Assembly (NCBI RefSeq): GCF_001709345.1
Contig: NZ_MDTQ01000001.1
Location: 972,742-1,036,741, forward strand
Origin: Terasakiispira papahanaumokuakeensis
GTDB lineage: Bacteria > Pseudomonadota > Gammaproteobacteria > Pseudomonadales > Halomonadaceae
Reading direction: 5' to 3'
Length of the DNA: 64,000 nucleotides
A model generated the notes under the pieces. It worked only from the letters and a program-made list of their open reading frames with translations, did not search any database and was not told the DNA's origin. Made by a program: the position numbers and the translations under genes. How positions within the stretch are numbered: the first letter of the stretch is position 1; every line of letters starts with the position of its first letter. This document shows positions 38,810 through 50,744 of the stretch, piece after piece.

Positions 38810-40360
38810 ATGTATGATAAAGCCCAGGCGTTTACTGTGATCCTGGCGAAGCGGCTGAATAGGCTATTAACGCATGGTCAACGAGCGTGCGGGTTTTTAT
38901 CGGCATTGCTGTTCGCAAGTGTGTCGATGTCCAGCTTGGCGGCTGAACCTCCGCCTGGAGCTCTCGTGATTACACAGGCCTCTTGGCAACAGCGTCATAC
39001 TGAATTTTTGGCCAAGCCTGCCAGCTTGATGAAGTTAGTGACGGCGACAGCCGCTTGGCAAACGCTCGGGCCCGATTTTCGGTTTGCCACTCAGTTGCGC
39101 TATCAACGTATTGATCCGCAAACAGGGCGCGTTCAGCTGTCTTTCTCTGGTGATCCGACCTTACGCATCGATGATTTGATCGCCTTGTTCCATCAATTGA
39201 AAAGCGCAGGTGTCACCCATATCACCGAGCTCACCATCGATGACTCACTGTATGCGGGCCACCCTTGGGGGACAGGGCAAGTCTGGAATGACCATGGCAT
39301 CTGTTTTGCCGCACCGACCACCGCCATTATTGTGAGCCATAATTGCATTCGCGGTAATTTAAAACCGACCCAAGTGGGCCAGCCTGCACGCTTGCATATG
39401 GCCGATTATGCCGGTGTGGCGTTCACCAATCACGTGATCACCCAAGCACCAGGTGAACCGCCTTGTGAAGCGCTCCATCAGGTGACATCGGATAATCACT
39501 TTACCTTAAGCGGTTGTATTGATCGTCGGCGCCGAGTATTACCGCTTGCGTTTTCGGTCGTGAATGTACGGGCTTATCTCACTGCGATTATCCAGCGTAT
39601 GACCGAAAACCAAGGGATTGAGTGGTCAGGACAGCCGACTTTCGCCGCCATTGATCAGGCGCTTTATCCCCAAGCCTTGACCCATCAGTCAGCGCCCTTA
39701 ACCAAGCTCATACACCGAATGCTTAAACGATCAGATAACCTGATTGCCGATAGCCTGTTTAAACAGTTGGGGGCGCAACGATATGGTACCGGCACTTATC
39801 AAAATAGCGCTGAAGTGGTGTGGCAGATCTTGGCGGAGTATCAAATTGCCCGCCGCAATCAAGTCATCCAAGATGGTTCTGGGCTCTCACGGGAAAACCT
39901 GCTGTATGCCTCGACCTTGTATCAAATTTTAACGCTATGGCGCGATAACCCGGCCTTTTCTCCCCTGATTGATGCACTGCCTATTGCCGGGCGCGATGGC
40001 ACTTTAAAATATCGACGTAGTGTGCAGAGCCCGGTACTGAAAGGGCATATTCAAGCCAAGACTGGATCGATGGCAGGCGTATCCAACTTGGCCGGATATG
40101 TGATCACCTCACAGGGTTTGAGCCCCTTTGTCTTAATCGCCAATCAGGTTTCAGCTGATGATGAGGCCCAAAGCGCGATCAAGCGAATGACGGATTATGA
40201 AACGGATTGGTTGTTACAAAGCATCGCCAACGCTAACGAAAGAGCAAGCGCTCATGCGGTTGAAACAGAACGAACGGTTAAAGCAGAACGAACGGTTAAA
40301 GCAGAACGGACGGTTAAAGCGGAACCTGCAACTGATATGACCGCCACATCGAAACCATGA
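38810..40360 (+). CDS. dacB: D-alanyl-D-alanine carboxypeptidase/endopeptidase (PBP4)
   Basis: A 516-residue class C low-molecular-weight penicillin-binding protein. A signal peptide precedes the SxxK motif SLMK (in KPASLMKLVTATAAW), the SDN motif (KRSDNLIADSL) and the KTG motif (QAKTGSMAGVSN). It hydrolyses D-Ala-D-Ala and cross-links in the periplasm. The C-terminus carries three in-frame ERTVKA hexapeptides from an 18-base repeat, absent from ordinary DacB. A small ABM-domain gene follows seven bases downstream. Confidence 0.94.
   Translation: MYDKAQAFTVILAKRLNRLLTHGQRACGFLSALLFASVSMSSLAAEPPPGALVITQASWQQRHTEFLAKPASLMKLVTATAAWQTLGPDFRFATQLRYQRIDPQTGRVQLSFSGDPTLRIDDLIALFHQLKSAGVTHITELTIDDSLYAGHPWGTGQVWNDHGICFAAPTTAIIVSHNCIRGNLKPTQVGQPARLHMADYAGVAFTNHVITQAPGEPPCEALHQVTSDNHFTLSGCIDRRRRVLPLAFSVVNVRAYLTAIIQRMTENQGIEWSGQPTFAAIDQALYPQALTHQSAPLTKLIHRMLKRSDNLIADSLFKQLGAQRYGTGTYQNSAEVVWQILAEYQIARRNQVIQDGSGLSRENLLYASTLYQILTLWRDNPAFSPLIDALPIAGRDGTLKYRRSVQSPVLKGHIQAKTGSMAGVSNLAGYVITSQGLSPFVLIANQVSADDEAQSAIKRMTDYETDWLLQSIANANERASAHAVETERTVKAERTVKAERTVKAEPATDMTATSKP
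40268..40321 (+). repeat. 18-nt in-frame repeats at the 3' end of dacB
   Basis: Three 18-base units (GAACGAACGGTTAAAGCA type) at 40268, 40286 and 40304 encode ERTVKA three times, close to the dacB stop codon. Confidence 0.9.
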
Positions 40361-45772: not shown

Positions 45773-45931
45773 CCATACGTCAACCTATGTCAATCAATGC
45801 ACATTTTAGACTGGCATCATCGCTTAAGGTGTTTCTATATTAAGGTATCAGGGACATGACGTTGCGGAATAATGAGCATAGATTTTGATACAAATGCGCA
45901 TGCGCACTTATCACAAAAATAATGGTTATGG
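45773..45931 (+). other. Long attC-like (VCR-type) site, copy 1
   Basis: About 159 bases that recur, at roughly 75-80 percent identity by eye, at 48309-48465. The left part (AACCTATGTC) matches the reverse complement of the right part near AATGGTTATGG, and CTTAAGG...TTAAGG pairs inside, so the whole is an imperfect hairpin. It ends in GTTATGG (45925-45931), and similarity to copy 2 stops just after this point, as expected at an integron crossover site. The first cassette gene follows. A shared leader/attI-like origin is an alternative. Confidence 0.5.
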
Positions 45932-46003
45932 ATGTGCGAAAGATTTTAAAAATCAATTGGTTAATAGTTTTATTGGTTCGTTGTCTCCTTGAGGAAAACA
46001 CGG

Positions 46004-46063
46004 ATGCGCAATATTAAAAATACTAGACCTTTTACACCGCAAATAGAAGATGATCATGGATAG
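46004..46063 (+). CDS. 19-codon leader ORF upstream of the peptidase
   Basis: A short frame, MRNIKNTRPFTPQIEDDHG, starts at ATG 46004 nine bases after a GAGG ribosome site. It ends at TAG 46061-46063, overlapping the peptidase start codon. Its ribosome site is better than the peptidase's own, so it may serve as a translational-coupling leader, as small ORFs do at integron attI sites. It could also be a peptide substrate of the peptidase; this is speculation. Confidence 0.4.
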   Translation: MRNIKNTRPFTPQIEDDHG

Positions 46064-46682
46064 ACGAAAATTCCTTAAGGTTGGTTCGAGTTCTCTTGCG
46101 TTAGGCGCTTTTGGCTTAAGCAAGCCTGCTTCTGCTCTTTTAAATTGCACACCGTTTAATTTTCAAGGTATACAGCAGTGTGAGGCGGGAATTGACTCTA
46201 GACTTGCTCATGTGAGTGCAGCTTCTGTCGGCGGGCAGCATATGACTCAATGGTGTTGGGCTGCCTGTATAGAAATGGTTTTCAGATACTATGGATTGCG
46301 CGTCCCCCAAGAAGAAATCGTTCAACAAACCTGGGGTGGGATAGTTAATTTACCTGGCCAACCTCATCAGATTCTCGCGAATCTAAATCGTTCTTGGAGA
46401 GACTCAAGAGGGCGAGGATTTTATGTTTCAGGTGATGCTTTCTCTGCCAATCCAATGACAGCAGCACAAGACTTATCAATCGATATGCCGTTAATTATAG
46501 GCACAATGGGGCACGCTATGGTTTTAACATCATTAATGTATGTACGAGATCACTTTGGTCGTGGAGATGTCACAGCTGCTGTAGTACGAGATCCATGGCC
46601 AGGTAACGGCAGACGAGTTTTATCTGCTCAAGAGTGGTATAACACTTCGTTTCTCGCTCGCATCAGAGTAAACCCGGCCTAG
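46056..46682 (+). CDS. Tat-exported papain-like cysteine peptidase
   Basis: A 208-residue protein with a twin-arginine signal (MDRRKFLKVGSSSLALGAF). The catalytic Cys motif QWCWAACIEMVFRYYG and the His motif MGHAMVLTSLMYV match the papain-like AvrRpt2/C39-like group. VVRDPWPGNG supplies the likely Asn/Asp. It would act in the periplasm or outside the cell. It is AT-richer than flanking genes. Its stop codon lies inside the left arm of an attC-like site, as in a compact gene cassette. The target is unknown. Confidence 0.82.
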   Translation: MDRRKFLKVGSSSLALGAFGLSKPASALLNCTPFNFQGIQQCEAGIDSRLAHVSAASVGGQHMTQWCWAACIEMVFRYYGLRVPQEEIVQQTWGGIVNLPGQPHQILANLNRSWRDSRGRGFYVSGDAFSANPMTAAQDLSIDMPLIIGTMGHAMVLTSLMYVRDHFGRGDVTAAVVRDPWPGNGRRVLSAQEWYNTSFLARIRVNPA

Positions 46683-46740
46683 CAAAGTGCTGCTAGGGAC
46701 AAACCTACGCTACGCTCCGGTTTGCCCCAGATCACTCGTT
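46677..46740 (+). other. attC-like site interrupted by an IS remnant
   Basis: The left arm GCCTAGC overlaps the peptidase stop codon. Inside is the stem GGGACAAACC / GGTTTGCCCC with one extrahelical A, a typical attC feature. The site stops at ACTCGTT, where the IS begins. Joining it to the right flank of the IS (CGTTATGC from 47250, with CGTT duplicated) restores CGTTATGC, an integron-like core. So the IS landed in the core of a complete attC. Confidence 0.6.
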
Positions 46741-47249
46741 CAGGCTGTAGAAAAACCTCCGGAACTATGATGTGATCGGGTTTTGAAACGCAGGAGACGG
46801 TGATGGCTCGATTCAAGCACTACGATTACAACCCAACGACCCGCGAGCGACACCGACTGGATGAAACATCGCGTCGACCGTCCCCACGGTAAACAAATCT
46901 ACAGCCACCGGATGCCCGTTGTAGAACCGGTATTCGGCAACATCGGCACAACGAAGGGGCTGAACCGCTTTAGTCTGCGGGGCAAGAAGAAAGTACAAGG
47001 TCAGTGGCAGCTTACTGCTTGATGCACAATATTGAGAAGTTAGCGAATTATGGTCGTTTGGTTGTGTCATGAAGTGTCATCAGGTGCGAAGTATATCGCT
47101 TTTTGAACCTAGCAGACCGCTTTCAGCGAGCCTAAGTTGGGCGCTCAAGTGACTAAATGCCAATATTAAAATGACTCAGCCAGATGACCGACTAGGCATA
47201 AGGACAAAAGGCGCTGGAGACGGCTCGAAATTGGGCTTTTCTACAGCCT
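46741..47249 (+). mobile_element. Decayed IS1182-like element
   Basis: About 509 bases bounded by 16-base inverted repeats with one mismatch: AGGCTGTAGAAAAACC (46742-46757) and the complement of AGGCTGTAGAAAAGCC (47234-47249). CGTT occurs on both outer sides as a likely target duplication. Inside is only the two ends of a transposase gene, so most of the element was deleted. It cannot move by itself. Confidence 0.75.
46803..47072 (+). pseudogene. IS1182-family transposase remnant
   Basis: The start (MARFKHYDYNP) behind CAGGAGACGG is followed by a large internal deletion. In another frame the C-terminal part reads MKHRVDRPHGKQIYSHRMP, VEPVFGNI, LNRFSLRGKKKVQGQWQL and, after a one-base deletion, YCLMHNIEKLANYGR. 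These are typical IS1182-type DDE transposase C-terminal sequences. At least one deletion and one frameshift make it nonfunctional. Confidence 0.85.
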
Positions 47250-47295
47250 CGTTATGCTTCCCTCGGCTAGCAGGATCAAGGATAAGAATTTCTAT

Positions 47296-48125
47296 ATGAG
47301 CAATAAATTTACATATCAATCAGATGATTATGATCGACAGTCGCAAAGATTCGTGATTCCTTTATATGTCAAGGATGAATTAGACAGTTACGAATATTCA
47401 TCTACAGGGACACTCGTTAGTTATAAAGGATATCATTTTATAATTTTCGCTGCGCATGCGTTAGGCGGTGGGGTTGAGTTTGAGAATATCTACACTTTTG
47501 GTAGTGATGGAGATTTTTATCGGATCATGGATTTTGCAGATGATTATCAAGTGTTCAAAGAAGAGGATATAGTTATTGTTGATTGTTTTAATCGAGCATT
47601 AAAAAACAAAAACTACTTTAATCTTGATATAAAAAGTCTGAACGGTTTTGATAAAAAGCACTTTGCTTGGACTGGGTTTCCTGCAAGTAAAACTAAATTA
47701 AAGAAAGCACATAAAAGCAGTTCAAAAGAAGCTTTGGAAAATAAATTTGTATATATTGATGAAAGTGGAAATACTTTAAAAATGCCAAGTACTTTACGAT
47801 AGTTTCGAAAATAGTAATAAATAACAAAGTTAAAATTTCTGGCGTTTATGATAGAAAGGGTTTGAATTTAAAATACCAAGGCAATGTGAGCATGGGGCCA
47901 CACCCTCAAGGTATGAGTGGTGGTGCTATGTATTTTTTTTCAAAAAATCAGATGTTGAAATCAAACATTGATGACACCTTTCGGTTTGCAGGAATAGGTA
48001 TCGAGTACAAAAAAGATAACTCGATTATCGGTGTTCCTAGGCTTAAAATAATTGAGTTAATAGAAATGCTTGATATCGAAAGACCTATTCAAGTCAAGCT
48101 GGTTCAAAATAGCTCAGCCAGGTAG
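47296..48125 (+). pseudogene. Trypsin-like serine protease cassette gene, frameshifted
   Basis: The first frame (47296-47802, 168 codons) and a second frame (to 48125) read as one protein of about 276 residues if one A is added in the A-run near 47776-47782. The reconstructed protein has His in FAAHALGGG, Asp in EEDIVIVDCF and Ser in PQGMSGGAMYFF, the order of a trypsin-like catalytic triad. There is no signal peptide. It starts 45 bases after the restored attC core, a short leader typical of cassettes. The lesion may be real or an assembly error in a homopolymer. Confidence 0.7.
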
Positions 48126-48202
48126 ATGCAACCGAACTTCGGCAATGCGGCGGATACAAGCGCCTCGATTGATGAAGACAAAGAGGCATGAGCTAGCTTT
48201 TT

Positions 48203-48275
48203 TCGCTTGCAAGCAAGCTCCCACAGCCCTTCAGATTACCCTCTGAACCTTCTGTGGGAGTCTGCTTGCAGGCGA
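48203..48275. repeat. REP-like inverted repeat
   Basis: Two 24-base arms (48203-48226 and 48252-48275) are inverted with three mismatches; each contains CTCCCACAG. This resembles REP/BIME palindromes of Pseudomonas. It lies between the broken protease gene and the second long attC-like site. Together with 48126-48308 it occupies a gap with no gene. Confidence 0.75.
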
Positions 48276-48308
48276 TTGTGTGAAGGGCTGCAAGCAGACC
48301 AGCAATAG

Positions 48309-48465
48309 CCCATCAACCCATGTCAATCAACGCGCATTTTTTACTGGCGCCATCGCCTAAGATGTTTCAGTATCAAGAGATTAGGGGCACAAAGTTGCGG
48401 CATAGTGAGCACAAAATTTGATATAAATGAGCATGCGCACTTTTCACAAGAGACAATGGTTAGGG
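48309..48465 (+). other. Long attC-like (VCR-type) site, copy 2
   Basis: About 157 bases similar along their whole length to 45773-45931. AACCCATGTC at the left pairs with GACAATGGTT at the right, GCGCAT with ATGCGC, and GCCTAA with TTAGGGGC, giving an imperfect hairpin. It ends in GTTAGGG (48459-48465), after which similarity to copy 1 stops. A cassette gene begins 20 bases later. Confidence 0.55.
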
Positions 48466-48485
48466 TTATCTAAAATATCCTTGAT

Positions 48486-48725
48486 ATGACCCCTATAAAT
48501 GAATCTGATGGTGAGGATGCTATATTCTTTGAAGAATACAATCGCTATCCCGGCACTAAGTTCGGAGGCTTTCCAAATTGTATTCAACACGGTCATAATT
48601 TAGATGGGTTCGTTTTTCAAATCGGCAGTGAGGAAAAGCCAAATTGGATGTGGGCTGATAACGGAATCGCCTATTTCAATAAAGACGAGTCTGGTGATTG
48701 GGTGTTCGAATGCCAGTTCTACTAA
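48486..48725 (+). CDS. Small DUF1963-like cassette protein
   Basis: A 79-residue acidic protein. The order TKFGGFPNCIQ, FVFQIGSEE and MWADNGIAYFNK...FECQFY resembles the C-terminal half of YwqG/DUF1963 proteins (TKxGGxPxxIQ ... GDxGxxYxF). The N-terminal half of that family is missing. It is bounded by attC-like sites on both sides and reads in the cassette direction. The function is unknown; DUF1963 proteins often occur near toxin-immunity loci. Confidence 0.7.
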   Translation: MTPINESDGEDAIFFEEYNRYPGTKFGGFPNCIQHGHNLDGFVFQIGSEEKPNWMWADNGIAYFNKDESGDWVFECQFY

Positions 48726-48788: not shown

Positions 48789-48824
48789 TTCCCGAGTGCC
48801 CCTGTGTTTAGAGAGAGATTGATT

Positions 48825-49349
48825 TTGCTAAAATTTGAACTGTCAGTAGGTACGATTAGTATTGATGATCGTTATGATGAATGTTTTACTGATCCAATAA
48901 AAGTCGCCTTTCTTGATGATAAGGAATGTGAGTTTTTAATTGAGAATTACAAGGATGATAAAGTTAAAGAAGATTTTCAAAAGGCAATCAATAACTTTAT
49001 AAATCTAGACAAAAGCGTTCTCTATGGTGTCAGTGGATTGGTTTATCAATATTATTTGAAAACTTTGAAGTACCTGAGCCCTGAGGATGATGGCTATGTT
49101 GAAATTGAAAGGCCGCAAGATGTTTGGCAATTTGTTCGATTTGGATGTGAGCCAGCGGTGTCTCGTCGAGATGATGATAATACGATATACATTTCATTGG
49201 TATGCAGTTGTGATTGGGAGCGAGAGCATGGACTACAGTTAGTGTTCAAAGATGGTCGCTATGTCAACAAACTAGGGGGGTATGATGGTCATTTAACTCA
49301 CTCGGATGCTTTTGATGATGAATCTCTAGAAGGTGTTATTTATAGATAA
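48825..49349 (+). CDS. DUF6985-like cassette protein
   Basis: A protein of about 174 residues, low in GC. The C-terminal part SCDWEREHGLQLVFKDG followed by KLGGYDGHLT resembles DUF6985-type proteins found singly in many bacteria. The N-terminal part has no recognised domain. The start is uncertain: TTG 48825 follows the purine-rich GAGAGAGA, while ATG 48786 overlaps the attC core. It is on the cassette strand. The function is unknown; an immunity role is only a guess. Confidence 0.65.
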   Translation: MLKFELSVGTISIDDRYDECFTDPIKVAFLDDKECEFLIENYKDDKVKEDFQKAINNFINLDKSVLYGVSGLVYQYYLKTLKYLSPEDDGYVEIERPQDVWQFVRFGCEPAVSRRDDDNTIYISLVCSCDWEREHGLQLVFKDGRYVNKLGGYDGHLTHSDAFDDESLEGVIYR

Positions 49350-49642: not shown

Positions 49643-50299
49643 GTGAATAAAACTGATCAGTCATATTCTCAAGTGGATTTCGCCAGTCAAGATCTTAGTG
49701 AATACATTTTTTCTAACTGTAAATTCTATTGCTGTAGCTTTAAGCGCGCTTATCTGAGAGATACTCAATTTATTGATTGTCACTTTATTGAGCAAGGGGA
49801 GTTGGAAGGGTGTGATTTCTCTTACTCCGATCTTCGAGACGCCTCATTTAAGAGGTGTAAGCTAGTTATGTCCTGCTTTATTGGGGCAAACTGTTTCGGT
49901 CTTGAATTGAGGGAGTGTGATTTAAAAGGGGCTAACTTTTCTCAAGCTAGCTTCGTGAATCGAGTGTCTCATAAGATGTACTTTTGTTCTGCGTACATCA
50001 CAGGCTGTAATCTATCCTATGTTAACTTTGAGAAACAGCTTATAGAAAAGTGTGACTTATTTGAGAACCGATGGATTGGTGCTCACTTAAGGGGCGCTTC
50101 ATTTAAAGGCTCAGACCTCAGTCGTGGTGTCTTTTCGGAAGATTGTTGGGATCAATGTCGAGTGCAAGGCTGCGACCTGAGTCATTCTGAATTACATGGC
50201 CTAGATCCTAGAAAAGTGGATCTAACCGGTGTGAAAATATGCACTTGGCAACAAGAGCAATTACTAGAACAATTAGGTCTGATCATCATTCCAGATTAA
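49643..50299 (+). CDS. qnr: Qnr pentapeptide repeat protein (QnrVC-like)
   Basis: A 218-residue pentapeptide-repeat protein with the exact length and landmarks of Qnr quinolone-resistance proteins: GCDFSYSDLRDASFK, GANCFGLELRECDLKGANFS, VSHKMYFCSAYITGCNLSY, KCDLFENRWIGA and the C-terminus VKICTWQQEQLLEQLGL. The N-terminus (MNKTDQSYSQVDF..QDLS..F.NCKFYCCSFKRA) is closest in my recollection to the integron-borne QnrVC group. Qnr proteins mimic DNA and protect gyrase and topoisomerase IV from fluoroquinolones. The start is GTG with a weak AAGG site. A terminator lies upstream; I see no clear LexA box. Resistance is predicted, not shown. Confidence 0.92.
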   Translation: MNKTDQSYSQVDFASQDLSEYIFSNCKFYCCSFKRAYLRDTQFIDCHFIEQGELEGCDFSYSDLRDASFKRCKLVMSCFIGANCFGLELRECDLKGANFSQASFVNRVSHKMYFCSAYITGCNLSYVNFEKQLIEKCDLFENRWIGAHLRGASFKGSDLSRGVFSEDCWDQCRVQGCDLSHSELHGLDPRKVDLTGVKICTWQQEQLLEQLGLIIIPD

Positions 50300-50668: not shown

Positions 50669-50672
50669 AAGG

Positions 50673-50744
50673 GCCTAACAAATGGTTGTGGCGGAGCAAC
50701 TTTTCGCTGGTGCTACAAGCTGCCCACTATGCCAAGCGTTAGCG
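50673..50744 (+). other. attC site (best example)
   Basis: About 72 bases starting with the R'' box GCCTAAC and ending with the R' box GTTAGCG. The arms CTAACAAATGG and CCAAGCGTTAG are near-complementary, and shorter pairings lie inside. It follows a cassette gene stop codon by four bases. This is the expected form of an integron recombination site, and it appears to be the right boundary of the array. Confidence 0.72.

Follow-up and report, generated by a model that had tools for sequence, protein, structure and literature searches.

The genome of Terasakiispira papahanaumokuakeensis (Halomonadaceae) carries a dispersed repeat that, with a probability we put near 0.88, represents copies of the attI region of an integron, multiplied and scattered without the integrase gene (intI), each copy a putative docking site for gene cassettes. 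Two copies lie in the 64,000-nucleotide stretch analyzed here (hereafter the window; contig NZ_MDTQ01000001.1 of RefSeq assembly GCF_001709345.1, positions 972,742 to 1,036,741). As direct repeats (45780–45931 and 48313–48465) they are identical at 122 of 153 aligned positions, with a local alignment score of 149, where 200 shuffles reached at most 28. An earlier reading of this sequence (the original prediction) had correctly recognized two long aligned copies in an integron or cassette context, the latter borne out by two matches to an attC covariance model (46676–46740 and 50672–50740). It had also placed the end of the similarity, near GTTATGG or GTTAGGG, at a recombination core. The similarity of this pair stops there because the copy at 48309 is truncated; other long copies remain homologous for ~90 further bases, up to ATTAAAA(A)TG/TTA (the slash marks the cut).

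Dispersed copies and homology to the attI region

The host genome (G000) comprises 4,048,029 bases in two contigs. The repeat makes up the left portion of a dispersed element of ~250 bases, which occurs 11 times between 534 kb and 2574 kb of the 4.04-Mb contig, and a longer query added end fragments, including right ends at 1822162 and 2579709. Eight of the 11 copies reach the right end and six of these end in ATG/TTA (the 534k copy has an internal deletion); the core is altered in the window copy at 45775 and in the 2333k copy, and the right end is missing at 1021k, 1194k, and 2320k. Different open reading frames (ORFs) start after the repeat end in each copy, and behind the six ATG/TTA ends an attC usually follows. 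Six copies share a left flank resembling repetitive extragenic palindromic (REP) sequences.

A profile built from seven host copies (251 positions, no relative included) was compared with intI loci of relatives, 57/201 family genomes having an integrase match at 1e-40. Among 25 intI loci, only that of genome G090 scored below 0.01 (E 1.7e-4), and the other 24 gave nothing below 0.2. Among eight intI loci, G079 was matched twice (E 2.9e-6 and 2.4e-5; positions 20–250 and 20–249) and G090 once (5.9e-5), the next value being 0.074. In G090 and at one G079 locus (C2), the attI homologue lies between a full-length intI and the first cassette, the same place as in attI2-type integrons. At the other matched G079 locus (C14), intI survives only as its initial segment, separated by an insertion and lying ~1.3 kb away; inspected by eye, the intI promoter region of this locus (L091) appears broken by an insertion sequence with an 8-base duplication, TTAAATAT.

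The sequence preceding intI in G090 ends in CGCGCATGCGTGATATTAAAATG/TTG. The 1426k host copy contains a LexA-type box, CTGTATATAAATACAG, resembling, and placed like, the box before intI in G090 (a motif match without a chance control). The repeat core, ATTAAAATG/TTA, resembles the minimal delta-attI2 core, printed as AATAAAATGTTRRRY in the accessible part of PMC12901181. Because the profile finds the intI–attI region of relatives and the core resembles that of attI2, we conclude on sequence grounds that the repeat probably corresponds to the intI–attI intergenic region, i.e. attI together with the promoter side of intI. A search of the host genome with TIGR02249 at E 1e-5 revealed no integron integrase, the intI that a complete integron would have; pieces of the model matched at two loci (at most 77.6 and 56.3 bits, where the cut-off is 265), which we take to be XerC and XerD.

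Copies, cassettes, and attC sites across related genomes

A second model (R1) combined the seven host copies with three intI-linked sites, and matches to these ten are by construction. At E 0.01, R1 matched 32/201 family genomes in 7/24 genera. The richest genomes had matches at 13 (G079), 10 (G068), 9 (G004), and 8 (G040) places; G141 had eight matches at four places and G210 seven at six, with matches on the two strands counted separately. Five genera of the family (g1, g3, g5, g11, and g24) had R1 matches at several places per genome, and three of them (g1, g5, and g24) were looked at more closely. When the raw repeat itself served as a DNA query, no copy was detected in 37 relatives; only the profile recovered copies. 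The exact core pattern was present in 15 stretches of Oceanospirillum maris, O. sanctuarii, O. linum, O. multiglobuliferum, and two Oleispira metagenome-assembled genomes. Oceanospirillum genomes too carry scattered attI copies. At 1e-40 the integrase search matched none of G004, G040, and G068, although a 42-residue integrase remnant lies beside one attI copy of G040.

We surveyed 56 copies: 10 from the host, three intI-linked, and 43 others. The three host copies lacking the right end (1021k, 1194k, and 2320k) were set aside, and the survey covered 46/50 R1 matches of G079, G004, G068, G040, G090, G056, and G023 (all except G068 C210:356504, G040 C15, G090 C373, and G056 C82). Most copies had ~2 kb of upstream sequence, L151 under 0.8 kb. 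Integrase homology (tblastn, E 1e-3) was found beside 7/56 copies, full-length in two (G079 C2 and G090) and partial in five (143, 101, 42, 36, and 29 residues). One copy (L128) is 91% identical over 283 bases to an attI beside a full intI, yet shows no intI trace. The TG/TT core is intact in 34/56 copies, and in these the sequence becomes variable right after TTA, as expected of an attI, whose G/TT core stands where cassette DNA begins. Information content is 26.9 bits over the 30 columns preceding the cut and 5.2 bits over columns 4–30 following it; the conservation on the left is partly by construction, since the copies were retrieved with the model and selected by their core. The first forward ORF begins within 70 bases in 46 of the 53 copies with enough sequence for the count (median 26), compared with 439/1088 random upstream positions (median 109).

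On the left, homology stops at or beside a LexA half-box, TATACAGTATATTT, in at least nine copies of G079, G004, G040, and G068 (by eye). Two of these copies occupy one orthologous site, the DNA to the left of the whole set shows no intI, and other copies stop further in. On the right, three genomes have an insertion sequence of the IS110 family whose start coincides with the attI core (...ATTAAAA/TAATGAGATGGACGCCC; L132 at 2143, L162 at 2118, and L164 at 2173). The assignment is based on PF01548 and PF02371 in L162, on PF01548 in L132, and on the identical start only in L164; an attI-targeting IS110 element is possible.

Some positions are shared between species. One attI (site A) follows the same gene, presumably an indolepyruvate ferredoxin oxidoreductase from its translation, in G079, G004, and G068, and another (site B) follows the same gene, apparently an aldehyde dehydrogenase by the same token, in G004 and G068; the first ORFs differ at both. 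From the oxidoreductase to a serine dehydratase gene the distance is ~3.5 kb in G004 and ~9.8 kb in G068, and the intervening DNA is largely different, though with a few segments in common. A comparison at this locus yielded no empty site, G040 and G056 being non-syntenic there. In a tree of the copies (leaving aside host copy L018, with its internal deletion, and the 1822k fragment), eight host copies form one clade (100/99), and those of G090 (98/93) and of G023 (98/79) also group together. Copies of different Oceanospirillum species are intermixed, and the oxidoreductase-site pair of G004 and G068 groups at 99/95; many inner branches are weakly supported (9/51 starred). The eight host copies are one clade, so attI appears to have multiplied within the host lineage from one ancestor.

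To locate cassettes, we used an attC covariance model (R2) with 23 training sites, most of them chosen from hand-scan candidates adjacent to ORF stops at 20 loci. Compensatory changes occur in 12/13 of its predicted pairs. Across 53 loci, R2 placed a same-strand attC within 4 kb downstream of 35/56 attI copies and none on the opposite strand; the single attC found upstream of a copy sits between two tandem copies. These 35 copies are not all independent because pairs in L014, L136, and L144 share one attC. Without the training sites, 23/56 copies keep a downstream attC, and the examined copies are followed by 30 distinct attC from outside the training set. The tally began with 68 R2 rows, from which seven of L055/L056 (six overlap other loci, 2327507 does not) and six with E above 0.0045 were removed and to which two window rows were added, leaving 57. 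Four of the non-training attC kept are in L015/L019, whose attI copies are outside the 56; two of the four, both in L019, precede the truncated 2320k copy and belong to a later stretch of the array starting at 2333k. In a scan of the whole host genome (E 0.01), each of the 14 matches followed an attI copy on the same strand, at a distance of no more than ~8 kb; seven are training sites and two lie behind the truncated 2320k copy. This list is incomplete because the first filter scored 150/930 candidates and missed 50672–50740.

Cassette regions of the window and the host genome

The first attI copy of the window (45775–46026, + strand, like all features below), of the intI–attI intergenic type and lacking intI, is matched by R1 at 45874–46021 (E 1.6e-29), by construction since it is part of the model. 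It looks decayed because its core is altered to ATTAAAAATACTAG, compared with ATTAAAA(A)TGTTA in intact copies. The first cassette gene (46050–46682) begins 30 bases past the point taken as the attI end and encodes a papain-like cysteine protease with a weak match to the Peptidase_C70 family (PF12385, E 7.6e-4, 19.8 bits, cut-off 19). Its attC (46676–46740; R2 E 0.005, a non-training site) is split at the GTT core by an internally deleted insertion sequence (46737–47254) with the end CAGGCTGTAG and a DDE transposase remnant (PF13751, DDE_Tnp_1_6, E 3.4e-12 for 46861–47019). A second cassette gene (47254–48125) is apparently broken into two frames in the ORF list, and neither 47254–47799 nor 47862–48125 had a Pfam match.

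A REP-like flank (48134–48308), which all-against-all blastn and alignment also show to the left of five other host attI copies, leads into the second attI copy (48309–48486; R1 match 48407–48486, model positions 1–80/151, E 1.8e-12). This copy is truncated, without its right half and core, and fused to a partial gene, a C-terminal DUF1963 fragment (48486–48725; PF09234 positions 133–195 of 216). A DUF6985 cassette gene (48807–49349; PF22481, E 8.4e-40) and a probable cassette gene for a pentapeptide-repeat protein (49643–50299; PF00805, E 1.2e-25) follow, and the last attC found in the array is at 50672–50740 (R2 E 4e-6, 1 of the 23 training sites). With E up to 1, R2 matched only these two attC in the window, which thus contains at least two attC and no nearby intI, the definition of a cluster of attC sites lacking an integron integrase (CALIN). 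Elsewhere in the window, an 18-base tandem repeat lies close to an ORF end (40257–40325), and an Rfam gathering scan of the window for a group II intron gave no match.

Six host loci (the window, L012, L013, L017, L019, and L020) have a 45–80 base attC-type palindrome downstream of a gene, identified by hand and split at GTT by the insertion-sequence remnant with the end CAGGCTGTAG. This remnant has nine matches in the host genome, all within attI–cassette regions. CAGGCT follows the attC GTT at window 46737–47254 and in L013, L128, L130, L146, L148, L152, and L160, in both the host and Oceanospirillum; a DDE insertion sequence that targets attC may therefore be common to more than one genus. 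Host cassette cargo, from family searches of 10 chosen proteins each, includes a LysE transporter, a GmrSD-type nuclease (PADLOC HEC-06, E 9e-215), DUF4145 and DUF5343 proteins, a weak HEPN protein under the Pfam cut-off, and several proteins without a family. A repeated gene (MRRSLDHLPEYKQRELATISTILRDTLEDYLQ... or close) adjoins the cassette loci L012, L016, and L019, and two attI copies (L015 and L018) lie inside repeat regions whose ORFs are Rhs-like by eye. A plasmid search with the first copy gave no match, and scans of genome and viral contig collections with a left-end pattern gave 0, the host's own genome possibly being excluded there.

Mechanism, competing explanations, and significance

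We propose that an attI region, from the promoter/operator side of intI to the G/TT core, was multiplied and dispersed over the chromosome minus the integrase gene. Integrase supplied in trans would have joined circular cassettes to each attI copy by attC × attI recombination at ATTAAAATG/TTA, so that a captured cassette gene begins ~25 bases past the cut and closes in attC. One IntI presumably served all sites in trans and was later lost in the host lineage, leaving the sites as relics. A bolder version, to which we give slightly less than even odds, is a distributed integron in which one trans-acting integrase serves about ten attI docking sites and the attI block is itself mobile, having multiplied separately in several genera; the left end of such a block would lie close to where the intI promoter has its LexA box.

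Several observations weigh against scattered attI copies acting as docking sites. Docking by attC × attI recombination is an activity that sequence cannot demonstrate. Both window copies are damaged, the 2333k core is altered, and no intI was found in the host; 22/56 surveyed copies lack an intact TG/TT core. The profile missed the attI region of 24/25 intI loci, so the homology is limited to one integron type, and a consensus sigma-70 promoter scan of two attI copies found none. On the cassette side, the R2 training sites were mostly picked downstream of attI copies, and R2 placed no attC in the first 4 kb behind 21/56 copies (for four copies, <1.3 kb of downstream sequence was available). 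A hand-made hairpin scan was nearly unenriched per base (45 in 159,808 downstream, 22 in 90,746 upstream); it flagged 33/56 downstream and 18/55 upstream stretches, gave 13 hits in window 1–40000, and missed known sites. Of the other hand-made scans, one passed a single site and the filter for ORF-stop-adjacent candidates passed 20/53 loci without a control.

The main competing explanation is that each locus is what remains of a separate complete integron that lost its own intI. The partial intI adjoining five copies and the LexA-type box kept by some fit such decay, and in Xanthomonas, according to the part of PMC12444791 available, integron decay and intI loss are described, with CALINs occurring at conserved places across species. 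We nevertheless judge it unlikely: 49/56 copies, including L128, have no intI trace in the flanking sequence available, at least nine copies in four genomes share, by eye, the left edge at TATACAGTATATTT, and the eight host copies in the tree form a single clade. A chance association of an ordinary dispersed repeat (REP-associated or resembling a miniature inverted-repeat transposable element, MITE) with cassettes is considerably less probable still. Eleven copies over the genome, six with a REP-like left flank, are what it would predict, but not the fixed orientation to ORF and attC, the variable DNA from the same base, or the intI–attI homology. By eye, no inverted repeat of the unit ends was recognized in a check for MITE or transposon ends, and no empty site was at hand to check for a target duplication. 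The original prediction had named a genome-wide repeat without cassettes as the observation that would speak against it; the dispersal is there (11 copies on the 4.04-Mb contig), the absence of cassette context is not.

That prediction's own view, a long VCR-type (Vibrio cholerae repeat) attC shared between cassettes, we regard as highly improbable. The repeat does adjoin small genes and real attC, and a GTTA core-like string ends the aligned part. However, an attC forms an R''/R', L''/L' hairpin at the cassette 3' end, whereas the repeat sits 5' of the first cassette; its homology extends beyond GTTAGGG, it matches intI-adjacent DNA of relatives, and the attC model did not report it. Both copies had been said to fold back on themselves. 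Folding of the 150-base pieces does not exceed that of dinucleotide-shuffled controls (z +0.26 and +0.52; 112 and 137 of the 200 shuffles equalled or surpassed them), in a weak test that gave the attC at 50672–50740 itself only z -0.42; the first copy contains a 34-base imperfect palindrome (45872–45929). As the repeat is attI-like rather than a long VCR-type attC, the suggested mixture of attC types in one array is left unsupported. Two further candidates were set aside. ATGCGC...ATGTTAAAT recalls a Xer/dif site, a reading dropped because the bases after GTTA vary, and TGTCAATCAATGCGCA-like ends are reminiscent of the IS21 family, a resemblance for which no search was made and which was dropped upon the intI match.

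Integrons are usually described as having one platform and one attI. The copies described here resemble attI2 of class 2 integrons in their core (AATAAAATGTTRRRY in the part of PMC12901181 available, vs ATTAAAATG/TTA). Unlike the attI of class 2 integrons, they occur at several to thirteen places per genome in the genomes examined, nearly always without an adjacent intI. Like CALINs, which in Xanthomonas also occupy conserved positions across species, the loci combine cassettes and attC without a neighboring intI, but they open with an attI homologue, unlike CALINs as defined in the available part of PMC12444791. Insertion into attG sites likewise scatters cassettes outside the integron (PMC12444791 and PMC12901181, as far as accessible), at varied genomic sites rather than at a repeated ~250-base attI homologue. 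In delta-attI-type unusual gene cassettes, attI pieces are also found outside the original platform; there, by the accessible text of PMC12901181, a partial attI replaces attC inside an array, whereas here, at many points of the chromosome, attI lies ahead of the first cassette, on its 5' side. We recognized no publication on scattered attI copies at title and abstract level, within a coverage outside which most subscription literature lies. Multi-copy scattered attI, with differing first cassettes at the same position across species, would give cassettes many chromosomal contexts. It could account for some of the integrase-less attC clusters known as CALINs, and it makes autonomous attI movement testable.

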